Assembly (NCBI GenBank): GCA_944336975.1
Contig: CALVLH010000003.1
Span: forward strand, 85,809 to 149,808
Length of the DNA stretch: 64,000 nucleotides
Source: an uncultured Clostridia bacterium
GTDB lineage: Bacteria > Bacillota > Clostridia > Christensenellales > Borkfalkiaceae
Direction: 5' to 3'
Below are positions 46,428-60,109 of the stretch, one piece after another; position 1 is the first letter of the stretch, and each line of letters begins with the position of its first letter. A program made the position numbers and the translations under genes. Below the pieces are notes generated by a model. The model made no database searches and had not been told where the DNA came from. It was given only the letters and a program-made list of their open reading frames with translations.

Positions 46428-47228
46428 ATGAAGAAGTTTGTTGCTGTTGCACTTACGGGTGTATCTATGTGCGCGCTTTGCCTTGGTCTTACCGCTTGCC
46501 AGGGCGGTGACAACGACGGTGCGGCTTACGCGCTTGTCCACGGCGGATCCTACGTCGGCGAAGCGACCGTTACGGTCGACAAAGACGGCAAGGTCACCGA
46601 AGCTACCCTCAACGAAGTCTGCCTTCCTACCTATGTGACCGCAGGTGAGGACGTTGCGGCTGACGACAAGGTTACAGTCACGGTTACCGACCACGGTTCC
46701 GAAGTTGAAAAGTCCTACTACAAGACCGTTTCCTTCGGCGATATTACGCTCACCTATGACGCAACCGAGAAAACCTATATGAACGGCACCACGAAGATGG
46801 CTGATTTCTTCCAGACGGAAGCAAACGCAAAGGCATACTTCGAAGCTGTTATGGCGAACAAGGTCTCCGTGACGGTCGGCGGCGAGAAGAAGACGGACAT
46901 CATGAACAAGGCTTCTCTTTGCAAGGAAGAGAACGGTTACTGGACCAGGCAGGATGCAGACGGAAATGATTATTCCCGTTGGGAAATGAACCGCGACGCT
47001 ACGGTCAACTATGTCAAGGAGTACGGCGTTGAAGAGCTCGATTCCCTTGTCCGCAACACCGAAGCGGAGAAGGATGAATACGGCGTTGACGCGAAGTACT
47101 GGGTCGACACGAACGGCGTTTCTACGGGCGCTACCTGGTCGGATATGAATTCCGATACGACGGGTAAGGGCTACCTGAGCTATGTTCAGCTCATCCTGAA
47201 GGCTTACGACGCAGCAAAGGCTGACTAA
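46428..47228 (+). CDS. FMN-binding-domain lipoprotein (PplA-like)
   Basis: The 266-residue protein has a signal peptide with lipobox LTA-C24. The mature part resembles the repeated FMN-binding layout of PplA-type lipoproteins: GGSYVGEATVTVDKDGKV near residue 39 and, near the C-terminus, VSTGATWSDMN followed by GYLSYVQLILKAY. TGAT (233-236) fits the [ST]GA[ST] motif that ApbE flavinylates, with T236 as acceptor. The first half carries no such motif. It would be an extracytosolic one-electron carrier. ApbE is encoded 130 bp downstream behind a terminator and its own promoter. GGAG precedes the ATG, although about 12 nt away. Confidence 0.83.
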   Translation: MKKFVAVALTGVSMCALCLGLTACQGGDNDGAAYALVHGGSYVGEATVTVDKDGKVTEATLNEVCLPTYVTAGEDVAADDKVTVTVTDHGSEVEKSYYKTVSFGDITLTYDATEKTYMNGTTKMADFFQTEANAKAYFEAVMANKVSVTVGGEKKTDIMNKASLCKEENGYWTRQDADGNDYSRWEMNRDATVNYVKEYGVEELDSLVRNTEAEKDEYGVDAKYWVDTNGVSTGATWSDMNSDTTGKGYLSYVQLILKAYDAAKAD

Positions 47229-47299: not shown

Positions 47300-47328
47300 T
47301 TGTTTTTTTTCGCAAAATGAGATATAAT
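47300..47328 (+). promoter_or_regulatory. Promoter of apbE
   Basis: TTGTTT at 47300-47305, a 17-bp spacer and TATAAT at 47323-47328. Confidence 0.78.
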
Positions 47329-47358
47329 GTCGGTATTGTTACGAAAAGGGAGTATTTC

Positions 47359-48588
47359 ATGAAACATCGGTCTATTTCATTTTCCGTCGGCGCCGGGATG
47401 ATGGCGGCGTGTCTGTTGCTGTCCGCTTGTACGTCCTCCGACGAAAACGGTCCGGTTGGGAAATTGCTCGGATATAATAATTTTGCCTATTTCAATACGC
47501 AGTCTACCTGGGCGTTCATGCCCGAGGGTGACGAGGCGAGCGAAACGGAAAAAGCGCTCTGGGACGAGATGAAATCCATCTTCGCGCGCGTGGAGAACAG
47601 TGTTTCTACCGACATCGAGGGCAGTTCCGTGGCGCGTTTCAACGCGGCGGACGCGGGTGAGGAAGTGGAGATCGATAAGACCGCATACGAGATCTTGCAG
47701 ACGGCGAAAGAGGTCTACGAAAAGACGGAAGGCGCGTATAATCCCGCCGTCGGGCTTCTGGTCGATCTGTGGGGATTTACGCCCCGCTTTACCGATTCGG
47801 ACGTCGTAGCAGACAGCCAGCCTTACGATCGGGAAAAATACTGGGAACAGCTTCCCGACGGGGAGTACATTCAGGCGTTTCTCGCGCTGTCCGATTTTTC
47901 CGCTGTTACCCTTCGGGAAGACGAGGGAAAATACTATGCCCTGAAACCCGAGACGGCGGCGATCGCCGTGGACGGCGTCACTTATACCATGCAACTCAAT
48001 CTGGGCGGGATCGGCAAGGGATACGCCGTCGATCAGGCTGCGGCGCTCGTGCGCGCGAGCGGGCAGGAATACGGCTATATCAGCCTGGGCGGGAGCAGTA
48101 TGTACGTCATGCAAAACCCCACCGTCGATGCGAACGAAGAGGGCGTGCGTCCTTGGAAAGTATCCGTCAACAATCCCCGCCCGTCGGAGTTTTCCGTATC
48201 GTCTTATGCAAGCGTCAGCATGAACGATGTGTTCCTTTCGTCGAGCGGCGACTATGAGCAGTATTACGAGATCGGCGGGAAGCGGTATTGCCATATCATC
48301 AATCCGAACACGGGATTTCCCGTCAATGCCGATCCCGACAGCGACGGGAGCGGGATCGCGATCGTTTCCGTCTTCGGACTTACGGCGGCGGAAGGGGACG
48401 CGACGACGACCGCGCTTATGGCGATGGGAAAAGACCGCTCGCTGGAATACATTGCGGAAAATCTCGAAGACAAAGATGTGATTTTCGTATACTATGACGG
48501 ACAGGCGGACAGCTATACCGTCTATACCAATATGGAAGAAGGGAAATATACCGTGCTCGCGGAAGGCATGTCGGTGGTAAAATTCTGA
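47359..48588 (+). CDS. apbE: FAD:protein FMN transferase lipoprotein
   Basis: ApbE uses FAD to attach FMN covalently to Thr/Ser of target proteins outside the cytosol. The 409-residue protein has a lipobox LSA-C24 and the ApbE core. Landmarks are STDIEGSSVARFN near the N-terminus, LGGIGKGYAVDQAAALV with the FAD-binding lysine, YISLGGSSMY, HIINPNTGFPV and the Mg-binding GDATTTALMAMG. Likely targets here are the upstream lipoprotein, RnfD (TGAT) and the RnfG homologue (SGAS). ATG 47359 follows AAAGGGAG. The stop overlaps the next ATG. Confidence 0.95.
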   Translation: MKHRSISFSVGAGMMAACLLLSACTSSDENGPVGKLLGYNNFAYFNTQSTWAFMPEGDEASETEKALWDEMKSIFARVENSVSTDIEGSSVARFNAADAGEEVEIDKTAYEILQTAKEVYEKTEGAYNPAVGLLVDLWGFTPRFTDSDVVADSQPYDREKYWEQLPDGEYIQAFLALSDFSAVTLREDEGKYYALKPETAAIAVDGVTYTMQLNLGGIGKGYAVDQAAALVRASGQEYGYISLGGSSMYVMQNPTVDANEEGVRPWKVSVNNPRPSEFSVSSYASVSMNDVFLSSSGDYEQYYEIGGKRYCHIINPNTGFPVNADPDSDGSGIAIVSVFGLTAAEGDATTTALMAMGKDRSLEYIAENLEDKDVIFVYYDGQADSYTVYTNMEEGKYTVLAEGMSVVKF

Positions 48589-49076
48589 TGGCGCTCAGGC
48601 AGATCGAACAAGTCAAAAAGAGAAAGCCGTTTGCGCTTTGGGATCTCGCCGTCTATGGGGCTTTGGCGATGTTCATCGTCATTTTGTTCATCGCATTCGT
48701 CTTTACGGCGGATCGGAGTCCCATCGACGGCGTCCGTTTCGTCTATGACGAGGAGACGGTCTATTCCTATTCCTTTACGGACGGTTCGTTCGTTGCGGAC
48801 GGTTGGGAAAACCGCATTGAAGAAGAGCGGGACGGAAGCGATCTTATCGTCACTTTTTACGAGGACGAGGCTAGGACGGAATATAACGTCATTACGATCG
48901 ATCTGCAACGGCGCGCGGCGAAGGTGACGGACACGAATTGCAGCCGACATAAAGACTGTATGTATATGACGGAGATCACCACGGCGGACGGCGTGATCAT
49001 CTGCGTGCCGCACGGGTTGAAAATTCTCGCCCTTAACGGAGAGGAAAATTGGGGCGACGGACCGATTCTCGGATGA
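48588..49076 (+). CDS. NusG domain II-containing membrane protein
   Basis: The 162-residue protein has a cytosolic basic N-terminus, one membrane helix (about 20-42) and an extracytosolic domain. The latter contains the CSRHKDCMYM and VIICVPHGLKILAL blocks typical of the NusG_II family. Such proteins often accompany ApbE, Rnf and Gx-transporter genes in Bacillota; the role is unknown. It overlaps apbE by one base (TGATG), implying coupled translation. Confidence 0.85.
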   Translation: MALRQIEQVKKRKPFALWDLAVYGALAMFIVILFIAFVFTADRSPIDGVRFVYDEETVYSYSFTDGSFVADGWENRIEEERDGSDLIVTFYEDEARTEYNVITIDLQRRAAKVTDTNCSRHKDCMYMTEITTADGVIICVPHGLKILALNGEENWGDGPILG

Positions 49077-49685: not shown

Positions 49686-50004
49686 CTATCCGAGGCAAAA
49701 TTGCGGGGAACGGAACGCCGAACGGAGAAGCGGAAAAAATCAGGCATCCGCAACGGCGGAAGGGCGGGAAGGGCAAGGGGGGGGGACGGCGGCAGATGGG
49801 AAAATGAAAAATGTCTGCTCGACGTGAGGAGGCGAGAAAGACAAACGGAATGAAATACGATAAAGATCGGACGGCCGACGGGAAGAGAAACTCAAAAGAG
49901 ACGGGAAAATTATCCAGCGGTTGGCGGAGATACGGAATGCGGAGAAATAATGCGCCCCGAAGGCAAATTGCCTTCGGGGCGCGTGTTCATGCGAACGTAT
50001 CGCA
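49686..50004. other. Intergenic region with a terminator hairpin
   Basis: No gene is seen; the sequence has a purine-rich, low-complexity character (GGGGGGG and GAAA runs). The end holds the 13-bp hairpin GCGCCCCGAAGGC/GCCTTCGGGGCGC (49952-49982), the probable terminator of the minus-strand gene ending at 50005. Confidence 0.6.
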
Positions 50005-50784
50005 TCATTTTGCTTTTTTCTTTTTGACAAGCACGGTATAGGGCTTGATCAGTCCATTCTCGATGAGCTGTTCGTCTGTCTTGTAGGCAAATTTATATTC
50101 GTTGCAGAGCGCGCCGACTTCGGTGAGTTCGTATTTCTCGGCGAGGAACTTGAACAATTCGAGCGCGTGTTTGAGCGCGCGGCGCGAGGTGATGCGAACC
50201 TTCATGGGGACCGCGGCGTGCGTTTTTTTGTCCGATACGTCTTCGAAGCGAAATTTAGTGTCTTCAAATTCCGCGGGATCGAGCGCGAGATAGAGACAGA
50301 GCGTCTTTCCCGAGATGTTGGATTTCGCGATGAGCTGTTTCCCTACGCGGTAAGTTTCTCCCTGGAAGCCGATGCGGCTCTTAACGCCCGCAAACCCGAG
50401 GATGGCGTTTTTCAGCCCGCTGTACAGTTCCTGTGCGGATTCGTTCTGGATGAGGCGGGATTTATAGCTGCGTCTGTACCGAGTGACCAGCTCATAACCT
50501 TCCTTGACGGGCGCTTCTTCCGCTTTCGCCGCGGCGATTTCCTCTTCGGGGAGCTCGTCTGCCTCTTCGATCTCTTTTAATTCGTCTTTTTCCGCCTGTT
50601 CGCGAACGACCGCCCGCGCGCAGGGATTGGTTTCCGCTTTGATGCAATAAGCGCAGTAACTCGCTTCGCCGCACAGGTCGCGTCCCGCGCGTTCGCTCGC
50701 CAGCCATTTATCTACGTCTATCGTCTGTTGCAGTTGCCCGAGTTCTTCCGTCGTCAATTCTTTTTTTTCGATCATTTCATTCAC
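50005..50784 (-). CDS. Conserved hypothetical protein with N-terminal Cys-cluster module
   Basis: The 259-residue protein has an N-terminal module (about 15-60) with DKWLASERAGRDLCGEASY and the cysteine pattern C-x5-C-x2-C-x7-C ending PCARA. A Glu/Ala-rich acidic linker follows. The C-terminal domain (about 105-250) has SRIGFQGETYRVGKQLIAKSNI and GKTLCLYLALDPAEFEDTKF, which I recall from conserved hypothetical Clostridia proteins of unknown function. The same Cys module is present in the protein encoded at 59717-60109. The four Cys could hold Zn or Fe-S. Own promoter at 50805-50833; no clear Shine-Dalgarno close to the ATG. Confidence 0.78.
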   Translation of the reverse strand: MNEMIEKKELTTEELGQLQQTIDVDKWLASERAGRDLCGEASYCAYCIKAETNPCARAVVREQAEKDELKEIEEADELPEEEIAAAKAEEAPVKEGYELVTRYRRSYKSRLIQNESAQELYSGLKNAILGFAGVKSRIGFQGETYRVGKQLIAKSNISGKTLCLYLALDPAEFEDTKFRFEDVSDKKTHAAVPMKVRITSRRALKHALELFKFLAEKYELTEVGALCNEYKFAYKTDEQLIENGLIKPYTVLVKKKKAK

Positions 50785-50943: not shown

Positions 50944-51762
50944 TCAATAACGCACGACGATGGTCTTTCTGGGGCACGCTTCCGCGCATTTTCCGCAGTT
51001 GACGCATACGTCGTAATCGATGACGGGCAGATTGTCCGCCATCTTGATGGCGCCTTCGGGACACGTCTTGACGCATTTTCCGCAGGCGATACAGCCGAAT
51101 TCGCATACGTCCATGACCGCCTTGCCTTTATCGTGCGAGGAGCAGGCGATATATACCTTTGCGTCCGCGGGAATGCGCTCGAACAGTCCCTTGGGGCAGG
51201 CGAGGATGCACGCGCCGCAGGAGATACAGCGGTCGGGGTTGACGTTCGCCTTTTTGTCGTTGAGGCAGATCGCGCTTTCGGGGCAAACTCTCGTGCAGTT
51301 CCCGTCGCCGAGACAGCCGTACTTGCACGCCTTTGCGCCGCCGCTCAGCTTCGCCTGTTCCGCGCAGTCCTGCGCGCCGACATAGGCGAACGCGTCTTTG
51401 GCGTGAACGCCGCCGCTGCATTTGCATACGCTGACGGTGGGGCGGGACTTCGCGAAAGGGACGCCGAGGATCTCGGCGATCTCCGCTTTTTTCTCCGCGT
51501 CCGTGACGTGGCAGTCGGAGAGCTTCGCTTCGCCCTTGCAGAGTTTTTCCGCAAAGCCCGCGCAGCCGCTGCAACCGCAACCGCCGCAGTTCGCTCCCGC
51601 GAGATTGGAGAGGATCTTTTCTACTTTTTCGTCCGCGTTCGTCTTGCAGAGCATGGCGACGACGAGAATGCAGGCGGTCAGCACGACCGCAATTCCCGCA
51701 AAGATCCCGATGACGATCCCCACTTGCGCCCACTGAACGGGCGCGAGAAGATTCAGATTCAT
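50944..51762 (-). CDS. rnfB: Rnf complex subunit B (ferredoxin-type Fe-S protein)
   Basis: RnfB takes electrons from reduced ferredoxin. The 272-residue protein has an N-terminal membrane helix (about 14-38) and a 4Fe-4S domain with CGGCGCSGCAGFAEKLC. Three further clusters are carried by CKYGCLGDGNC...C, CISCGACILAC, CIACGKCVKTC and CVNCGKCAEAC. It is the last gene of the rnfCDGEAB operon, 13 bp after rnfA, with AAGGAGG before the ATG. The Cys count and layout match clostridial RnfB. Confidence 0.95.
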   Translation of the reverse strand: MNLNLLAPVQWAQVGIVIGIFAGIAVVLTACILVVAMLCKTNADEKVEKILSNLAGANCGGCGCSGCAGFAEKLCKGEAKLSDCHVTDAEKKAEIAEILGVPFAKSRPTVSVCKCSGGVHAKDAFAYVGAQDCAEQAKLSGGAKACKYGCLGDGNCTRVCPESAICLNDKKANVNPDRCISCGACILACPKGLFERIPADAKVYIACSSHDKGKAVMDVCEFGCIACGKCVKTCPEGAIKMADNLPVIDYDVCVNCGKCAEACPRKTIVVRY

Positions 51763-51775
51763 ATTCTTTGCCTCC

Positions 51776-52402
51776 TTAAATAACGATTAGTGTGAACACA
51801 TAGAACGCCATCGCCATGAAGCAGGCAATGATCATCGTGATGGGGAAGCCTTTCATGCATTTCGCGATGGGAAGCGTGTCCACCTTTTCGCGGACGCCGC
51901 CCATGAGAACCATGGCGACGGTGAAACCGATGCCCGCGAACAGCGCGTACAGGAGCGCAAACCCGAGGTTCATGCCGACTTCCGCGCCCGCCGTGCCGAC
52001 GATCGCGGCGAGATCGGGCGTAAGCACGAGTTCCGCGACGCCCAGGATCGCGCAGTTGGTCGTGATGAGGGGCAGGTAGATGCCCATCGTCTTATAGAGG
52101 GCGGGGGAAAGTTTTTCGATGACCTTTTCCAGGATCTGCACGAGCGCCGCGATGATGAAGATGAAGAAGATGATCTCCAGATATTCGATCTCAAGCGGCA
52201 CCATCACATAGGTGTAGAGGGGATAGGTGACGAGCGTCGCGAGGATCATGACGAGCGTCACGGCAACTCCCATCGAAAGCGCGTTGCCCGTCTTCTTGGA
52301 AACGCCGAGGAAGGGGCAAATGCCGAGGAACTTGACGAGGATGAAGTTCTGCGAGAAGACCGCGGCGACAAAAATCATGAGAATAACGGTAAAGATGTTC
52401 AC
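51776..52402 (-). CDS. rnfA: Rnf complex subunit A
   Basis: The 208-residue protein has six membrane helices. It carries FLGICPFLGVSKK in the first helix pair and the symmetry-related TTNCAILGVAE, whose Cys, together with those of RnfE, hold a membrane-embedded iron-sulfur cluster in the Rnf/Nqr family. Length is normal (about 190-210). It lies 3 bp after rnfE. Confidence 0.95.
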   Translation of the reverse strand: MNIFTVILMIFVAAVFSQNFILVKFLGICPFLGVSKKTGNALSMGVAVTLVMILATLVTYPLYTYVMVPLEIEYLEIIFFIFIIAALVQILEKVIEKLSPALYKTMGIYLPLITTNCAILGVAELVLTPDLAAIVGTAGAEVGMNLGFALLYALFAGIGFTVAMVLMGGVREKVDTLPIAKCMKGFPITMIIACFMAMAFYVFTLIVI

Positions 52403-52405
52403 GGT

Positions 52406-53068
52406 TTAAGCCTCCTTGTCTTCCGACATCTGTTCCACGACGGGAACGCGCAGCAGTCTCGCTTTTTTCGCTCTGCGGCTCTTTTCTACCTGATCGATGA
52501 TGAGAACGAAGAGGGCGATGCAGATACCGTAGACGAAGAACGCGCCTGCCGAGTTGGTGAAGAACGACATCTTGAAATCCATCACCTTGATCCCGAAGAA
52601 GCTGCCGCTTCCGAGGAACTCGCGGATGATGCCGATGATCGTGATCGCGCAGGTGAACCCGAGCCCCGTCGCTACACCGTCGATCGCGCTGTCAAGCACG
52701 GGGTGCTTGCTTGCGAACGCTTCCGCTCTGCCTAAAATGATGCAGTTGACGACGATCAGAGGCAGGAACACGCCCATCGAATCGTAGAGGGAAGGAATAT
52801 ATTTTTCCAGGACCATGCGAAGGATGGTGACCATCGTCGCGATGACGACGATGAATGCGGGAATGCGCACCGTGTTTGGGATGACCTTGCGCAACAGGGA
52901 GATGATCACGTTGCTCAGAAGCAATACGACGGTGACGGAAAGTCCCATGCCGAAGCTGTTGAGCGCCGCGGTAGACATCGAAAGGGTCGCGCAGGTGCCG
53001 AGTACGAGTTTGAAGGTCGGATTGTTGAAGATCAATCCGTCCAGAGAGATTTTCGCGTATTTATTCAT
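52406..53068 (-). CDS. rnfE: Rnf complex subunit E
   Basis: The 220-residue homologue of RnfA has six membrane helices, VLGTCATLSMST and VNCIILGRAEAFA as cluster-ligand regions, and a basic C-terminal tail. The ATG overlaps the rnfG stop by 4 bp (ATGA), indicating translational coupling. Confidence 0.94.
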   Translation of the reverse strand: MNKYAKISLDGLIFNNPTFKLVLGTCATLSMSTAALNSFGMGLSVTVVLLLSNVIISLLRKVIPNTVRIPAFIVVIATMVTILRMVLEKYIPSLYDSMGVFLPLIVVNCIILGRAEAFASKHPVLDSAIDGVATGLGFTCAITIIGIIREFLGSGSFFGIKVMDFKMSFFTNSAGAFFVYGICIALFVLIIDQVEKSRRAKKARLLRVPVVEQMSEDKEA

Positions 53069-54852
53069 TGTTCGCCTCCTTCTGCGACGAATGCAGGATA
53101 ATTGCTTGCCGCATAGACTGCCGCGATGAGGCAGCTGAAGTCGGAATAGCTTGCGCCCGAGGTGATCGTGCCGCCGTCGACGTCCACGTTGTCGCCTTCG
53201 AGGACGGCTTTGAGATCCGCCGCGGTCTTGCCGACGAAGGCGGTGCCGTTCAGATAGTCTGCGTTCATGTCGCCTTCATAACCGCCGGTGGAACCGTTGG
53301 TCTTGATCTCATAAGCGGTGATCTTGTCGCCCGTCACGGTGATATCGATGACGAAGGCGTCCGCGTCGCCGTTGGATTTGACCGTGAGCGTGTAATATAC
53401 GCTCGTGCCTTCCGTAGAGGTGACGATGGAATCGAAGTGCTCCGCATAGGGCAGATATTCCGCCGTGCGGAACGCGTTTGCGTTGGTCGCCGCATAGACC
53501 GCCGCGATGAGACAACTGAAGTTGGAATAGCTTGCGCCCGAGGTGATCGTGCCGCTGCCCATATCCACGTCGTCGCCTTCGAGGATAGCTTTGAGATCCG
53601 CCGCTGTTTTGTTCGTGAAGGCGGTGCCGTTCAGATAGTCTGCGTTCATGTCGCCTTCATAACCGTCGGTGGAACCGTTGGTCTTGATCTCGTAAGAGGT
53701 GATCGTGTCGCCGGTCACGGTGATCTCGATGACGAAGGCGTTCGCGTCGCCGTTGGATTTGACGTTGAGGCTGAATTTGACCGTATCCGCTTCGATGTTC
53801 GTCTCTACCGATGATTTCTCGAAATCGATATAATCGGCGTAGGGGAGGAACTCTGCGGTGCAGAGGTCGTCGAAGTTCGCCGTCGCAAACGCCGCCGCGA
53901 TGAGACAACTGAAGTTGGAATAGCTTGCGCCCGAAGTGATCGTGCCGCCGTCCAGGCTGACGTCGCTGCCGTCGAGGATGGCTTTGATCGCCGCCGCATC
54001 CTTTTCAAGGAAGAAGGTGCCGTCCAGATAATCCGCGTTCATGTCGCCCTCATATCCATCGGTAGAGCCGTTGGTCTTGATCTCATAAGCGGTGATCGTG
54101 CCGTTTTTGACGGTGATGTCGATGACAAAGGCGCCCGCTTCGCCGTTTGCCTTGACGGTAAGCGAAAGATCGAGCGTCTTCGCCGCCAGATCCGCTTCGA
54201 TGACCGACTTGTCCATATCGATATACTTTTCGTACTCGTATTTGTAGGTCACGACTTCCTGTCCGAGCAGTTCGGACTTGACATAGAGGATACTCGTATT
54301 GACCGCGTTGCAGAACGCGCGCGAAGTGCGCGAGGAGCCTGCGACGAGGGCGGGAACGGTATTCGTTTCGCCTTCCGCGGAGAAGAGCATATCGTCGAGG
54401 ATCTCGTCGTTGTACTGCGTGAACAGTTCGTAATAGGACGAGGAGAACGTTCCCATCTGCGTCTGGCTGGTGTTGCTTTCGTAAACGACTTTTCCGATTC
54501 CCTTCCAGGAGGACGCCGTAAAGTTATGCACCACCCATACGGTGACGGTACCGCCGTTATAGCCGTTTTTCCCCGTCGCCTGAATGAGGTAGTTTCCGTC
54601 GTCCATGAGATAGACCTGCGAAACGGTACCGTTGTCGAACGTCATCGCCTCGTCGTCCGTGGAGAGGATTGTCTTTTCGACTTTTGCATTCCCGCCGTAG
54701 ATCTCTTCGATGACGCGGTTGAAGCGCTCTTCATCGGAGATATAGAGCAGGTCGTTGAAGATCGCGAGCAATCCGCCCGCAACGATCGTGATCGCAAGAA
54801 GAACGGCGAGGGCTCTGAACGCCGTGCTCTTGAAAAATTGCTTCGCCGTCAT
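53065..54852 (-). CDS. rnfG: RnfG homologue with three extra FMN-binding-like repeats (595 aa)
   Basis: RnfG is the periplasm-facing flavoprotein of Rnf, normally about 190-210 residues with one FMN on a Thr. Here an N-terminal membrane helix (about 13-33) and an RnfG-like domain (about 40-190) end in AGSSRTSRAFCNAV (171-184), where SGATxTS is expected. Then follow three 127-131-residue repeats (about 205-338, 339-469 and 470-595), each with EIKTNGST-GYEGDMNADYL and ending GTITSGASYS-FSCLIAA. The SGAS motifs are at 307-310, 438-441 and 565-568; Ser would be the acceptor. Each repeat keeps one Cys (315, 446, 573). Good AAAGGAGGG site; adjacent to rnfD with no gap. Confidence 0.9.
   Translation of the reverse strand: MTAKQFFKSTAFRALAVLLAITIVAGGLLAIFNDLLYISDEERFNRVIEEIYGGNAKVEKTILSTDDEAMTFDNGTVSQVYLMDDGNYLIQATGKNGYNGGTVTVWVVHNFTASSWKGIGKVVYESNTSQTQMGTFSSSYYELFTQYNDEILDDMLFSAEGETNTVPALVAGSSRTSRAFCNAVNTSILYVKSELLGQEVVTYKYEYEKYIDMDKSVIEADLAAKTLDLSLTVKANGEAGAFVIDITVKNGTITAYEIKTNGSTDGYEGDMNADYLDGTFFLEKDAAAIKAILDGSDVSLDGGTITSGASYSNFSCLIAAAFATANFDDLCTAEFLPYADYIDFEKSSVETNIEADTVKFSLNVKSNGDANAFVIEITVTGDTITSYEIKTNGSTDGYEGDMNADYLNGTAFTNKTAADLKAILEGDDVDMGSGTITSGASYSNFSCLIAAVYAATNANAFRTAEYLPYAEHFDSIVTSTEGTSVYYTLTVKSNGDADAFVIDITVTGDKITAYEIKTNGSTGGYEGDMNADYLNGTAFVGKTAADLKAVLEGDNVDVDGGTITSGASYSDFSCLIAAVYAASNYPAFVAEGGEQ
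53068..54240 (-). repeat. Three tandem repeats of about 390 bp encoding FMN-binding-like domains
   Basis: The SGAS codons end at 53149, 53530 and 53923 (plus-strand positions of the final Ser codon), 381 and 393 bp apart. Long stretches around GGCACGATCACCTCGGGCGC are almost identical at DNA level, so the duplications are recent or kept alike by gene conversion. Confidence 0.9.
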
Positions 54853-55875
54853 TTATTTGCCCTCCTTTGCCGTGTCCGCTTTGACCTTCTTTTCTTTATG
54901 AAATCCGAAGGGACGCGCCTTGATCGCCGCGTCGAGAAGGAATACGACGAGGTTCATCAGGACGATGCAGAAGGATACGACTTCGATGCCCGTCGCCTTT
55001 CTCAAGCCTGCGGTCAGAAGTCCCAAGAGGACGAAATAGATGATGTTTCCGAGTTTGCTCTTGGGAGTGGTGACATAGTCGGTCGCCATGAAGATCGCGC
55101 CGAGGATAAGTCCGCCCGAGAGGATGGAGGGAAGGAACTGCGTAAAGTCAAATCCTTCGAGTGCGACCGCGAACAGTCCCGTGACCGCGATATAGATAAG
55201 GGGCAGATACCACTTGATCACGCCGCGCACGCACAGATATACGCCGCCCGCGAGAAGGGCGATCTTGCACGTTTCGCCGATACAGCCCGCAACGCCCGTG
55301 CCGAGGAGCAGGTCGAGCGCGGAGAGGGTGCCTTCTCCCGCAAGCCCGCTCGTGAGCGAGGTCGCGCCCGTCATGAGCGAACCGTTGGACTCAAAAAGGG
55401 CGCCGAAGTTGGGATCGGGATACGCCGTCATCGCCGCAAAGGAGATGAACAGGAAAATTCTGCCCATGAGCGCGGGGTTCATGATGTTTCTGCCCGTACC
55501 GCCGAACAGCATTTTGACGACGCCGACTGCGAAGATACTGCCTAAGAGGGGCATATACCACGCGTCGATGTTCGCAGGAATGATGAGCGCGAGCAGAAGT
55601 CCCGTGATGAGAGAGGTGAAGTCGAATTGCTTGAAGAAAGCGTTCACGACTTCCTTGCCTCCCTGCCAGACCTTGTTCTGAATGATATACCACACAAATT
55701 CGGTCAGGAAGGCGGAAGCGAGCGAAATGAGGATAAGAACGAGCGCCTGCCAGCCGAACAGTACGCAGCCCGCGATCGTCGCGGGAGCGAGCGCGATCAG
55801 GACGTCGAGCATGATCGTCTTGGTCGTCCGTGCCGTCTTGACGTGGGGCGCGGTGGATACGATAAGTTGATTCAT
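54853..55875 (-). CDS. rnfD: Rnf complex subunit D
   Basis: The 340-residue membrane subunit has about nine helices and the flavinylation motif T169-G-A-T172 in SLMTGATSLTS; T172 would carry FMN. FGGTGRNIMNPALMGR and ATDYVTTPKSKLG are typical of RnfD/NqrB. The C-terminus is Lys-rich. It lies 16 bp after rnfC and directly abuts rnfG. Confidence 0.95.
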   Translation of the reverse strand: MNQLIVSTAPHVKTARTTKTIMLDVLIALAPATIAGCVLFGWQALVLILISLASAFLTEFVWYIIQNKVWQGGKEVVNAFFKQFDFTSLITGLLLALIIPANIDAWYMPLLGSIFAVGVVKMLFGGTGRNIMNPALMGRIFLFISFAAMTAYPDPNFGALFESNGSLMTGATSLTSGLAGEGTLSALDLLLGTGVAGCIGETCKIALLAGGVYLCVRGVIKWYLPLIYIAVTGLFAVALEGFDFTQFLPSILSGGLILGAIFMATDYVTTPKSKLGNIIYFVLLGLLTAGLRKATGIEVVSFCIVLMNLVVFLLDAAIKARPFGFHKEKKVKADTAKEGK

Positions 55876-55891: not shown

Positions 55892-57184
55892 TTACTTCTT
55901 CTTTCTCAGTTCGGCTTTCGCCGTCTTGATCGCCTGCGCCAGCGGTCTGTGTGCGGGGCAGATATACGAGCACGCGCCGCATTCGATGCAGGCAAGCACG
56001 CCGCCGTACTGATCGGCTTTCGCATAATCTTTCGCGTTGGTGTAAAATTCCGTCTGCATGGGCATGAGCTTCATGGGACATACGTCCGCGCATCTGCCGC
56101 AGTTGATGCAGGGGGTAGGCTCGTCCGCGTTGGTCTCGTCCGCCGTCATGAACAGAAGTCCGGAAGTCGTCTTGGTGACGGAGCCGCAAAGTCCCGTCAG
56201 CGCGCTGCCCGTCATAGGGCCGCCGAGGACGAACTTGACCGCGTCATCCTTTACGGAGCACTGCGCCGCGAGAGCGGAAAGGGGAGCGCCGAGGGGAGCG
56301 CGCAGGTTTTTGGGCGTTTCCACGCCTTTGCCCGATACGGTTACCACGCGTTCGATGAGCGGTTTGCCCTGTTCCACCGCTTCGCATACCGCGAGCGCGG
56401 TCGCGACGTTCTGCACGATGACGCCCGCGTCGGCAGGGAGTTTCCCGAGAGGGACCTTTCTGCCCGTGCATACGTAGATGAGGTGCTTTTCCGAGCCCAT
56501 CGGATACTGCTTTTTGAGCGCCACGACGTTGAGGGGCGTCTTTTCAAACGCCGCGATCGCGTCGGGCTTGTTCAGTTCGATGCCGATCACGATCTTATCC
56601 ACGCCGACCGCCTTGGCAAGGTACTGTGCGCCGCGCACGATCTCGTCCGTGCGTTCCAGCATGATGCGATGGTCGCAGGTGAGATAGGGCTCGCATTCCG
56701 CGCCGTTGAGAATGAGCGTGTCCACCTTGACGGCGGGCTTGACCTTGACGTGCGTGGGGAAGCCCGCGCCGCCCATGCCGACGATGCCCGCTTCCGCAAT
56801 GCGCGCGGCGATCGCCGCGCCGTCCGCGTTTTCGGGCAGGGGCGCCATGAAATCGGTCGCGTCGCTTCCGTCACTTTCGATGACGACGCATCTGACCTTC
56901 CCGCCGCGTCCGTCCGCTCTCTCTTCCACCGCCTTCACCGTTCCGGCGACGCTCGCGTGAACGTTGGCGCTCACGTAACCGTCCGCTTTCGCGATGAGCT
57001 GTCCGCGCTTGACCTGCTGACCGGGTTCCACGATACAAACCGCGGGTTTTCCGATGTGCTGGGAAAGCGGGATGACAGCTTCCGTGACGCCCGCAAGCTG
57101 CTCGACGGGCGCGGCGGAGGAAAGCGATTTCATGTCCCTGAGATGGATCCCGCGGGAGAAGAACTTTCCTTTGATAGCTTTCAA
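55892..57184 (-). CDS. rnfC: Rnf complex subunit C (NADH-binding)
   Basis: RnfC transfers electrons to NAD+. The 430-residue protein has the N-terminal barrel-sandwich region (ADGYVSANVHASVAGTV), the NADH/FMN-binding domain with GIVGMGGAGFPTHVK and LNGAECEPYLTCD, and a C-terminal pair of 4Fe-4S motifs (CINCGRCADVCP and CIECGACSYICP). The ATG overlaps the Gx-transporter stop by 4 bp. Order C-D-G-E-A-B is the clostridial arrangement. Confidence 0.96.
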   Translation of the reverse strand: MKAIKGKFFSRGIHLRDMKSLSSAAPVEQLAGVTEAVIPLSQHIGKPAVCIVEPGQQVKRGQLIAKADGYVSANVHASVAGTVKAVEERADGRGGKVRCVVIESDGSDATDFMAPLPENADGAAIAARIAEAGIVGMGGAGFPTHVKVKPAVKVDTLILNGAECEPYLTCDHRIMLERTDEIVRGAQYLAKAVGVDKIVIGIELNKPDAIAAFEKTPLNVVALKKQYPMGSEKHLIYVCTGRKVPLGKLPADAGVIVQNVATALAVCEAVEQGKPLIERVVTVSGKGVETPKNLRAPLGAPLSALAAQCSVKDDAVKFVLGGPMTGSALTGLCGSVTKTTSGLLFMTADETNADEPTPCINCGRCADVCPMKLMPMQTEFYTNAKDYAKADQYGGVLACIECGACSYICPAHRPLAQAIKTAKAELRKKK

Positions 57185-57759
57185 TTTGAATCCTCCGTTA
57201 TATGATTTTTTTCACCTTCTCTGTCCTTCCCGCCGAGAATCTTCGCAAACACGCCGAGAGGGACGCCCTTCACCGTAAAGATGACCGCAAGACCGACGAT
57301 CACCCCTGCCAGCACGCCGAGCAACGCGAGGTAGGGGAGATAACTGAAAATGAGCGTTGTCTGCGTGAGCGCGCAATATACCAGAAGCTGAACGGTATTG
57401 TGCACGACCGCGGAGACGACGCTGACGGCAAGCAGGCTGACTTTGGGGAACGCGAACATCAACAGTCTGGAAACGATGACGCTCGCGACTCCTGCGGTGA
57501 GGCTGTAGAGAAGAAGAGACGCGTTTCCCGCAAACAGACTGCCGAGCACCGTGCGGGCAATGACCACGATCAGAGCCTCGGGAAGCCCGTAGAGGACGAG
57601 GGTAAGCAGGGAGAAAATGTTGGAAAGCCCCATTTTCGCCCCCGGGAAAAACATGGGGGGAAAGAGGCTTTCGACCATGAACATAATCAGCCCGAATCCC
57701 GTCATCATGGCGAGCACGGCGATCTTTTTTGCGTAAGGCACGCGGTTCTTCTTTTCCAT
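57181..57759 (-). CDS. Gx transporter family membrane protein (HepS component I-like)
   Basis: The 192-residue protein has about five membrane helices and the family landmarks MVESLFPPMFFPGAKMGLSN, LPEALIVVIARTVLGSLF and HNTVQLLVYC. The family was named heptaprenyl diphosphate synthase component I, but its members look like small ECF-S-type transporters and often sit beside apbE/rnf genes, so flavin or quinone supply is a reasonable guess (inference). As first gene of the rnf operon it starts 7 nt after the -10 element with no Shine-Dalgarno. A GTG at codon 7 is an alternative start. Confidence 0.87.
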   Translation of the reverse strand: MEKKNRVPYAKKIAVLAMMTGFGLIMFMVESLFPPMFFPGAKMGLSNIFSLLTLVLYGLPEALIVVIARTVLGSLFAGNASLLLYSLTAGVASVIVSRLLMFAFPKVSLLAVSVVSAVVHNTVQLLVYCALTQTTLIFSYLPYLALLGVLAGVIVGLAVIFTVKGVPLGVFAKILGGKDREGEKNHITEDSN

Positions 57760-57766
57760 ATTTTAT

Positions 57767-57795
57767 ATTATAATCGTTCCCCGCCCGATTGTCAA
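57767..57795 (-). promoter_or_regulatory. Promoter of the rnf operon (leaderless geometry)
   Basis: On the minus strand, TTGACA (57795-57790), a 17-bp spacer and TATAAT (57772-57767), followed by ATAAAAT and then ATG, so transcription should start at or next to the start codon. Confidence 0.82.
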
Positions 57796-59716: not shown

Positions 59717-60109
59717 ATGACGTTTGAACAGTTGCAGAAATATCTGGACGAAGACAAGTGGATCGAAAGTTCCCTGCGCGGCGTGGATATGTGCGGGAGA
59801 TACGCCCGCTGCCGCTATTGCGACCGCGGCGCGAGTTATCCCTGCGCGCGGGCGCACAATAAGCTGATCGAGATGAGAGCCGCTTCCGTTCCCGACGCGA
59901 TCCCTTCGTGGCTGTTGTCCGAACCGCCCGTAAAAAAGAAGTTCGGTACAGAGATCGCGACGGAGCCGCCGATGGCACCCATGTCCGAGGGTAAGAGAAA
60001 ATGGACGAAATGGAAGGCACCCGTGTCCGCGGAACCCGCGGCGGAGAGCGACGGGGAAGAGGGCGCGGGAAAGGGCGTTCGCCTGTTTGTCCTGCGCAAA
60101 AAATCCTGA
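59717..60109 (+). CDS. Small protein with C-x5-C-x2-C-x7-C module
   Basis: The 130-residue protein has an N-terminal module (about 3-60) with DEDKWIESSLRGVDMCGRY and four Cys spaced C-x5-C-x2-C-x7-C ending PCARA, the same as in the 50005-50784 protein. The remainder is basic and Pro/Glu-rich with no recognised fold. There is no signal peptide. The module may bind Zn or Fe-S. The promoter is strong; GGGGG lies 10 nt upstream of the ATG. Confidence 0.75.
   Translation: MTFEQLQKYLDEDKWIESSLRGVDMCGRYARCRYCDRGASYPCARAHNKLIEMRAASVPDAIPSWLLSEPPVKKKFGTEIATEPPMAPMSEGKRKWTKWKAPVSAEPAAESDGEEGAGKGVRLFVLRKKS

Follow-up and report, generated by a model that had tools for sequence, protein, structure and literature searches.

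What could an RnfG protein with a long tail of repeated domains contribute to an Rnf complex? Rnf is a main energy-conserving machine of anaerobes, and ordinary RnfG/NqrC (7zc6 chain G, 9eri chain G) consists of a membrane anchor and an FMN_bind domain with its acceptor residue before the last helix, encoded within the rnf operon. Such a protein has about 200 aa, one domain and no appended repeats. The RnfG of an uncultured Clostridia bacterium of the Borkfalkiaceae shares the anchor, the first domain and the place in the operon, but extends to 595 aa. The DNA analysed here, a 64,000-nt stretch of contig CALVLH010000003.1 (assembly GCA_944336975.1), is referred to as the window, and the operon comprises the following features.

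57767..57795, minus strand: sigma-70-like promoter match upstream of the operon (TTGACA-17-TATAAT, 12/12; consensus match only)
57181..57759, minus strand: membrane protein of the Hpre_diP_synt_I family, at the head of the apparent operon (PF07456, E 6.3e-34)
55892..57184, minus strand: rnfC (TIGR01945, E 3.5e-149, over cut-off)
54853..55875, minus strand: rnfD (PF03116, E 2.9e-80; TIGR01946 over cut-off), itself bearing a TGAT site with T172 (55360-55362) as acceptor
53065..54852, minus strand: rnfG, 595 aa, four FMN_bind-like domains (ORF, Pfam, iterated profile, AlphaFold model)
52406..53068, minus strand: rnfE (PF02508, E 9e-60; NF009070, 229.2 bits, cut-off 184; TIGR01948, 211.4 bits, just under 213.4)
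51776..52402, minus strand: rnfA (PF02508, E 8.1e-52; best NCBIfam match TIGR01943, 198.7 bits, under cut-off 229.3)
50944..51762, minus strand: rnfB, FeS and several 4Fe-4S domains (Pfam; best NCBIfam match an RnfB model, under cut-off)
50005..50784, minus strand: 259-aa protein 3' of rnfB, ahead of the terminator-like site (ORF)
49952..49982, minus strand: terminator-like stem of 14 pairs after the operon (consensus match only)

The best Pfam and NCBIfam matches bear out a complete operon, rnfCDGEAB, around rnfG, as the preliminary description had proposed. NCBIfam cut-offs were passed by rnfC, rnfD and rnfE (the last with NF009070), the matches of rnfA and rnfB to their models remaining below them, and the 259-aa protein downstream of rnfB had no Pfam match at E 0.05. 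The rnfG gene was identified by its place between rnfD and rnfE and by FMN_bind. TIGR01947 is presumably the NCBI rnfG model; no rnfG model appeared among the NCBIfam matches at E 0.1, the sole match being NF033832, whose 20.9 bits lie below its cut-off of 70, and the assignment is therefore based on operon place and relatives. The protein is divided as follows.

54748..54825, minus strand: N-terminal membrane helix, residues 10-35 (AlphaFold helix and hydrophobic sequence)
54277..54597, minus strand: domain 1, the canonical RnfG domain, residues 86-192 (profile match)
54331-54333, minus strand: acceptor S174 of domain 1 in A-G-S-S, A171-S174 (codon check)
53869..54204, minus strand: r1, first appended repeat (residues 217-328), with S310 (53923-53925) as acceptor (profile, TRF, codon check)
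53482..53814, minus strand: r2, second appended repeat (residues 347-457), with S441 (53530-53532) as acceptor (profile, TRF, codon check)
53098..53427, minus strand: r3, third appended repeat (residues 476-585), with S568 (53149-53151) as acceptor (profile, TRF, codon check)

This arrangement of a membrane anchor, a domain at the canonical position and three repeats agrees with the preliminary description, which named no strand; the gene lies on the minus strand. The motif positions given there were also correct, with A171-G-S-S174 in domain 1 and an SGAS whose final Ser is S310, S441 or S568 in the repeats. Its description of the repeats as near-identical was too strong, since their cores are 67% (r1/r2), 64% (r1/r3) and 77% (r2/r3) identical in protein and 72%, 71% and 83% identical, respectively, in DNA. 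A conserved Cys does follow each acceptor Ser of the repeats (C316, C447 and C574), but six residues on rather than the five originally given. At the DNA level, the repeats form a tandem array of 393 bp in 2.9 copies (53108-54225, TRF score 1175), and this repeat structure shows that the RnfG tail has grown by tandem duplication inside the gene.

A search of the repeats against FMN_bind (PF04205) gave a divided answer. The whole RnfG scored 24.9 bits (E 3.2e-5), above the gathering threshold of 22, but r1 alone matched below the cut-off (E 0.019), and r2, r3 and residues 1-211, each searched alone, had no Pfam FMN_bind match. Iterated profiles, grown on the same proteins that were later counted with them, resolve RnfG into four domains. 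A profile of 47 appended repeats, compared with PDB sequences, placed RnfG 7zc6 first (E 0.0045) and RnfG 9eri fourth (E 0.029), and the profile of 38 first domains (A4) matched 7zc6_G at E 0.001. FMN_bind was the sole recurrent Pfam family, found in 10 of the 47 appended repeats and 27 of the 38 first domains at E 0.1, with other families occurring at most three times. A smaller profile of 12 repeats ranked two designed NTF2 folds above RnfG (third, E 0.018), and only 1 of those 12 matched FMN_bind even at E 10. Direct comparison of the appended-repeat and first-domain profiles gave weak results, with probabilities of 48 and 61 and pairwise E-values of 1.8e-4 and 8e-5, and the non-iterated appended-repeat profile reached a single one-domain RnfG (E 0.0055). 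In the AlphaFold model, all four domains share the same order of elements, namely four strands, short helices and a long final helix whose start coincides with, or adjoins, the motif Ser; the pLDDT of r2 was 91.8. Foldseek searches of the PDB returned no significant match either for the full RnfG model or for a repeat, for which the best relevant entry was domain 1 of CbFMN4 (rank 2, E 0.25) and NqrC 8ad0_C scored E 0.8.

The preliminary description considered the fusion of extra domains to RnfG unusual. This view is not sustained, because multi-flavinylated RnfGs, with a proposed second route to extracytosolic acceptors, are already reported in the part of Meheust et al. (2021, eLife 10:e66878, PMC8238504) consulted, and because multi-domain RnfG was found in 42/99 sampled loci of the family and in 13/57 of other families of the order. 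The loci were picked non-randomly from the rnfD matches listed, and a few from RnfG matches. In the family, 80 regions yielded 78 RnfGs (L057 was truncated and L078 had none), to which the window and 20 of 20 further loci were added; outside it, 57 RnfGs came from 60 regions (none in L161, L170 and L172). G195 and G217, with rnfD at a contig end, were dropped beforehand, and RnfGs from a separate related-loci search were excluded from the counts. Among sampled loci, domain number ranged from 1 to 5 in the window's genus and from 1 to 7 in genus g28, while single-domain RnfGs of the family had a median of 203 aa. Judged by sequence, multi-domain RnfG is common among the relatives of the window bacterium.

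The window RnfG is a further case of this described kind. By its sequence it falls within the multi-flavinylated definition of Meheust et al., more than one FMN-binding domain, and it shares with their RnfGs the location in an RNF cluster and the same proposed second electron route (PMC8238504, as far as consulted). It differs in that single repeats of the window protein and its relatives lie mostly below Pfam detection, and in that Christensenellales RnfGs with a multi-heme domain are described there, whereas no CxxCH heme motif occurs in the window RnfG, the 99 family RnfGs or the 57 RnfGs of other families. The literature passages found propose the multi-flavin RnfG from sequence and describe no test of it. 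Tandem FMN-binding domains behind an N-terminal signal for secretion and a membrane stretch are also found in SaFMN3 and CbFMN4, which were produced in E. coli with three and four covalent FMN, respectively; according to the sections consulted, these proteins are free-standing rather than fused to RnfG, and their domains have about 85 aa with >80% identity between copies (PMC10339131).

The window also encodes a flavin transferase, the candidate modifier of such domains, and two neighbouring proteins.

46428..47228, plus strand: lipoprotein-like protein encoded immediately upstream of apbE, bearing a single TGAT with T236 as acceptor (motif, gene-order comparison)
47317..48588, plus strand: apbE, FAD:protein FMN transferase (PF02424, E 3.7e-59)
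48588..49076, plus strand: NusG domain II protein adjoining apbE (PF07009, 29.0 bits, just under cut-off 29.6)

ApbE carries LLLSACTSS, which we take to be a lipobox-like signal. The gene lies about 4.5 kb from rnfG, close to the 5 kb first noted, and it was the one ApbE found in a search of the genome. Together with the domain, profile and model evidence, this supports the earlier proposal of extra FMN_bind-like domains fused to RnfG and one genomic ApbE to modify them. In the genus, one ApbE was present in 17 of the 18 Rnf-bearing genomes tested, and none of the four genomes without rnfD had any. Since apbE also stands beside rnf where RnfG has a single domain (L060, L061), it is no marker of the tail.

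The order lipoprotein-apbE-nusG_II recurs beside rnf in related loci, where two of the NusG domain II relatives pass the PF07009 cut-off. The window lipoprotein had no Pfam family and no match to the FMN-domain profile, and sequence comparison found it matched in only 4 of 61 genomes of the genus, its own included, with one other match being strong (91%). We nevertheless rejected the idea that it is peculiar to this species, as related loci carry such lipoproteins at the same place. A relative occupies the same position in L031 (E 1e-52), and six of eight readable loci have, directly upstream of apbE and beside rnf, a lipoprotein bearing a site of the flavinylation type (the window, L022, L024, L025 with TDAT, L027 and L031; not L023 or L032). 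L027 encodes, next to rnf, a lipoprotein of 1032 aa in which the RnfG repeat type itself occurs (residues 437-554, E 1.2e-33) together with seven further domains bearing TGAT or SGAT, eight sites in total; this lipoprotein passes Pfam FMN_bind (E 1.2e-16). Because similar lipoproteins sit at the same place in related loci, this newly noticed protein is a likely candidate partner of the RnfG tail. A fumarate-reductase-like acceptor was also sought and rejected: the match examined, the best of 10 to FAD_binding_2 in the genome, is a protein of 435 aa, presumably NadB-like, without a [ST]GA[ST] motif.

Taken together, these observations favour, with a probability of roughly 60%, a reading in which the four-domain RnfG is a flavinylated extra electron outlet or buffer fed by the Rnf loop. 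The Rnf complex (ferredoxin:NAD+ oxidoreductase) would hold four FMN_bind-type domains in a row on its extracytosolic RnfG, and each site would receive FMN on its Ser from the single ApbE. The membrane-proximal domain would do the usual job in the electron loop, while the three added domains would hang outside and draw electrons off the loop or buffer them. The most likely recipients of these electrons would be lipoproteins that bear flavin, for example the product of the gene beside apbE.

The acceptor sites speak both for and against this outlet reading. In its favour, the acceptor position was Ser or Thr in 241/241 aligned domains of the survey (a single one of 242, the second domain of L139, could not be aligned at the motif), G being kept in 218/241 and A in 213/241. 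Against it, all four acceptors of the window RnfG are Ser. Three of its sites, those at the last helix of each appended repeat, have [S/T]-G-A-[S/T] as SGAS, the first being AGSS; the published motif D-x-x-[S/T]-G-A-[S/T] begins with an Asp that all four sites lack, as do most relatives (Asp present in 42/233). According to the sections consulted, Thr to Ser lowered flavinylation by 10-55%, whereas in one enzyme changing this Asp to Ala had a minor effect only and replacing G by A, or A by V, no more than halved flavinylation (PMC12052999). The missing Asp, the weak scores of single repeats against FMN_bind and the lack of a significant structural match would suit appended repeats that derive from FMN_bind and stay unflavinylated, serving as a spacer or binding module that keeps the motif by chance. 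We regard this as unlikely: the acceptor is invariably kept while G and A vary, ApbE and Rnf occur together across the genus, and in the L027 lipoprotein the RnfG repeat type is found in the company of other domains of the FMN_bind type.

The AGSS site raises a second alternative, in which domain 1 has lost its FMN and an appended domain supplies the loop flavin, so that the tail replaces rather than extends the usual site. Within the family, domain 1 departed from G-A-[ST] in 9/15 RnfGs with at least three domains, 3/27 with two and 1/38 with one, a contrast (9/15 against 4/65, Fisher p 1.1e-5, not corrected for kinship) drawn, like the tree, from 80 loci, with genera g26 (14 loci; 4/14 altered) and g40 (5 loci; 1/5 altered) left out. 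Also in favour of relocation, the altered states differ among lineages (AGSS, TGTT, SSST, TGVT, ANAT), and a quick tree requires at least 11 changes. Against it, the acceptor Ser or Thr is kept in all cases, and changes at G or A left the enzyme cited above with half its flavinylation. Moreover, six tree-independent, well-supported pairs gave on average 2.1 differences in the same direction, 0.1 in the opposite and 3.8 without difference (sign test p 0.25-1), a tree-based test of too little power. In other families of the order, 11/44 single-domain RnfGs depart from G-A as well (e.g. TSAT, TGVT), and across all sets outside g26 the difference between multi- and single-domain forms was not significant (p 0.13). 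Seemingly strong inside the family, relocation was demoted as the main reading because single-domain RnfGs elsewhere show the same departures, and we now consider it improbable. The motif of the first domain is indeed altered, as first described, but AGSS gives no clear evidence of site loss, given the retained acceptor Ser and the departures in single-domain RnfGs. It is very unlikely that flavin domains merely come and go by slippage with little effect on where electrons end up: domain number does vary among relatives and rnfG does contain a tandem DNA repeat, but multi-domain forms occupy 30 of the 37 sampled g28 loci and the acceptor residue is kept.

The outlet proposed for the window may be one instance of a broader pattern. 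In the sister genus g26, RnfD continues past an additional helix with one to five repeats in tandem, mostly with T-S-A-T at the site, that are similar to the appended repeats of RnfG. Tentatively, and with somewhat less than even confidence, we suggest that the order added outside flavin domains to Rnf many times and interchangeably, on RnfG, on the RnfD of g26 and on lipoproteins upstream of apbE; if these domains are flavinylated, the family would have in them a modular external flavin relay that Rnf feeds. Genera that mix one-domain and many-domain RnfGs offer natural pairs for comparison. If the tails carry flavins, Rnf could spend ferredoxin electrons outside the cell instead of on NAD+, which would link the energy economy of these bacteria, with their small genomes, to acceptors outside the cell.

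The 595-residue RnfG exhibits one membrane helix, one RnfG-type domain (domain 1) and three tandem repeats (r1, r2 and r3). Its gene is flanked by rnfD and rnfE within an rnfCDGEAB set whose members were assigned from their Pfam domains and best NCBIfam matches (matches to the NCBIfam models for rnfA and rnfB were below cut-off), and the first gene of the operon encodes a Hpre_diP_synt_I family member. The main features are:

53065-54852, minus strand, rnfG, open reading frame of 595 residues
57795-57767, minus strand, perfect sigma-70-like promoter match (consensus match only)
49982-49952, minus strand, terminator-like stem of 14 pairs (consensus match only)

The array in the rnfG DNA consists of a 393-bp unit in 2.9 copies (76% matches), r2 and r3 sharing 83% DNA identity and r1 sharing 71–72% with either; the protein cores are 64–77% identical. 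Four candidate acceptors were located: S174 in domain 1, within AGSS, and S310, S441 and S568, each within SGAS. A Cys lies at +6 from the acceptor Ser in r1, r2 and r3, and this feature recurs in 37 of 60 appended repeats of the family set (loci L053 and L055 left out of the repeats) versus 0 of 99 first domains. Separately, proteins with similar-looking starts (DKW...C...C..C) are encoded at 50005-50784 (minus strand; the end of the rnf operon, with no Pfam match) and 59717-60109 (plus strand). A contig of another genome (G260:C38, L034) is identical to RnfG residues 1–47 and ends directly afterwards; its assembly may have been broken by the tandem repeat.

The preliminary description regarded the repeats as FMN_bind-like, a proposal for which the combined evidence is good, each single line of it being weak. 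In the FMN_bind (PF04205) search, whole RnfG scored above the gathering score and single repeats did not reach it. An iterated profile built from the three repeats (79 proteins) reached the RnfG first domains of relatives, and the enlarged profile, searched against one genome protein together with the 369 ORFs of the window, matched only the window RnfG (four domains) and the genome's other FMN_bind protein. A profile of 43 appended repeats, built without iteration, gave 45 matches on 3563 background ORFs: multi-domain RnfGs were matched strongly, with only one single-domain RnfG (E 0.0055), and a lipoprotein in each of L027 and L022 was also reached. Against PDB sequences, a 47-repeat profile placed RnfG 7zc6_G first (E 0.0045), followed at E 0.014–0.051 by three designed NTF2-like proteins and RnfG 9eri_G; with a 12-repeat profile RnfG (E 0.018) was outranked by two designed NTF2-like proteins, and a first-domain profile retrieved 7zc6_G at E 0.001. 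Two hhalign comparisons of appended repeats with first domains gave probabilities of 48 and 61.

In structure prediction, a check proposed earlier, AlphaFold modelled r2 with a pLDDT of 91.8. The full RnfG model (pLDDT 73.0, pTM 0.40), which does not fix the placement of the domains relative to each other, shows one order of elements recurring in all four domains, with the acceptor Ser at or adjoining the start of the last helix (residues 174–195, 310–325, 440–463 and 569–589). Foldseek searches with the repeat and the full model returned no match at E 0.001.

The strongest independent support for the FMN_bind assignment comes from a 1032-aa lipoprotein encoded beside rnf in L027, in which domain four belongs to the repeat type appended to RnfG (E 1.2e-33); this protein (E 1.2e-16) and the L022 lipoprotein pass Pfam FMN_bind. 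In the window, the gene order lipoprotein–apbE–nusG_II lies on the opposite strand, convergent on the rnf operon, and apbE and nusG_II occupy the same position in related loci, with apbE also found there beside rnf in the single-domain RnfG loci L060 and L061. The gene directly upstream of apbE encodes a lipoprotein-like product with a flavinylation-type site in six of eight readable loci, the window counted, and something else in L023 and L032:

Window, one TGAT
L022:9467-10711, minus strand, three TGAT/SGAT
L024, one site
L025, a TDAT
L027:13026-16124, minus strand, eight TGAT/SGAT
L031, one site (relative of the window lipoprotein, E 1e-52)

The place and type of this lipoprotein recur more than its sequence, since the window protein found one strong match among 60 other genus genomes. 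Elsewhere in the genome (L001, G000:C9:30825-31091) there is a lipoprotein-like FMN_bind protein of 443 aa that carries AGAT and TGAS motifs and may be a further electron acceptor.

The source genome (94% complete) contains a single ApbE match, that of the window. Among 22 genus genomes tested, exactly one ApbE was found in 17 of 18 with rnfD and in none of four without it. Genome G207 (L048), given as 97% complete, carries rnf with a single-domain RnfG and no ApbE match.

RnfG was surveyed next to rnfD, which is present in 226 of 398 family genomes and 110 of 151 genomes of the order sample. The fusion had been thought unusual, a view that the survey did not support: RnfG has more than one domain in 42 of 99 family loci (8/26 in the window's genus, 30/37 in g28, 3/3 in g33, 1/2 in g32, 0/14 in the sister genus g26 and none of 17 in five other genera) and in 13 of 57 loci elsewhere in the order, spread over six families. 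The protein has grown by two routes, through appended repeats, as in the window, or through copies of the first domain (L053 and L055). The largest family member (L098, G116:C44; 1138 aa) contains seven domains, five of seven sites reading NGS[ST]; L053 (G212:C31; 848 aa) contains five, none with G-A; and L166 (G428:C3), outside the family, reaches up to eight in a 927-aa frame.

In g26, the rnfD frame is extended by a helix followed by one to four repeats in all 14 loci read (L064–L077), and five complete reading frames (L208 and L209 left out) confirmed the fusion:

L207, 603 aa
L210, 852 aa
L211, 950 aa, five repeats
L212, 482 aa
L213, 474 aa

PF03116 spans residues 9 to 318–322 in four scanned proteins. 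The tail repeats, whose sites mostly read T-S-A-T, aligned with appended RnfG repeats in hhalign (probability 95, pairwise E 2.6e-8), and the non-iterated 43-repeat profile matched two tails directly (L069, E 1.9e-7; L065, E 4.5e-7). Because the Pfam scan of the tails saw no FMN_bind, they are only tentatively assigned as FMN_bind-like. One L211 repeat reads ISAV by eye and seems to lack an acceptor. No title or abstract opening retrieved on RnfD with FMN-binding fusions or flavinylated C-terminal extensions reports such a tail, and the sole RnfD-type extension described in the available portions of PMC10339131, PMC10979944 and PMC11334425 is a cytosolic NAD-binding domain.

The first site, in domain 1, departs from G-A-[ST] in 1/38 single-domain, 3/27 two-domain and 9/15 longer RnfGs of the family (80 loci), and in 11/44, 1/11 and 1/2, respectively, outside it. 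Across 142 loci outside g26, alteration accompanied three or more domains (10/17 versus 17/125 with fewer; Fisher p 1e-4, kinship ignored), and multi- versus single-domain proteins gave p 0.13. On a quick tree each trait required at least 11 changes, and independent pairs ran 2.1 the same way versus 0.1 opposite (p 0.25–1, too few differing pairs). All 241 aligned domains have Ser or Thr at the acceptor position, and one further domain has a gap there. The variation can be read as looser recognition of the surroundings of an acceptor that has been retained, rather than as proven loss; the flavinylation motif and substitution effects are given in PMC12052999.

Meheust et al. 2021 (PMC8238504) described RnfGs bearing several FMN-binding domains within RNF gene clusters and suggested an additional path by which electrons would reach extracytosolic acceptors. 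They also described Christensenellales RnfGs with a multi-heme domain; CxxCH is absent from all 156 surveyed RnfGs, the window's included. According to Huang et al. 2024 (PMC11334425; preprint PMC10979944), multi-flavinylated proteins are modelled as beads-on-a-string, and PMC10339131 reports for SaFMN3 three covalent FMN by mass and one potential only, at -184 mV. The best explanation remains the mechanism proposed in print. The window RnfG is a genuine, well-placed addition to the already described class of multi-flavinylated RnfG.
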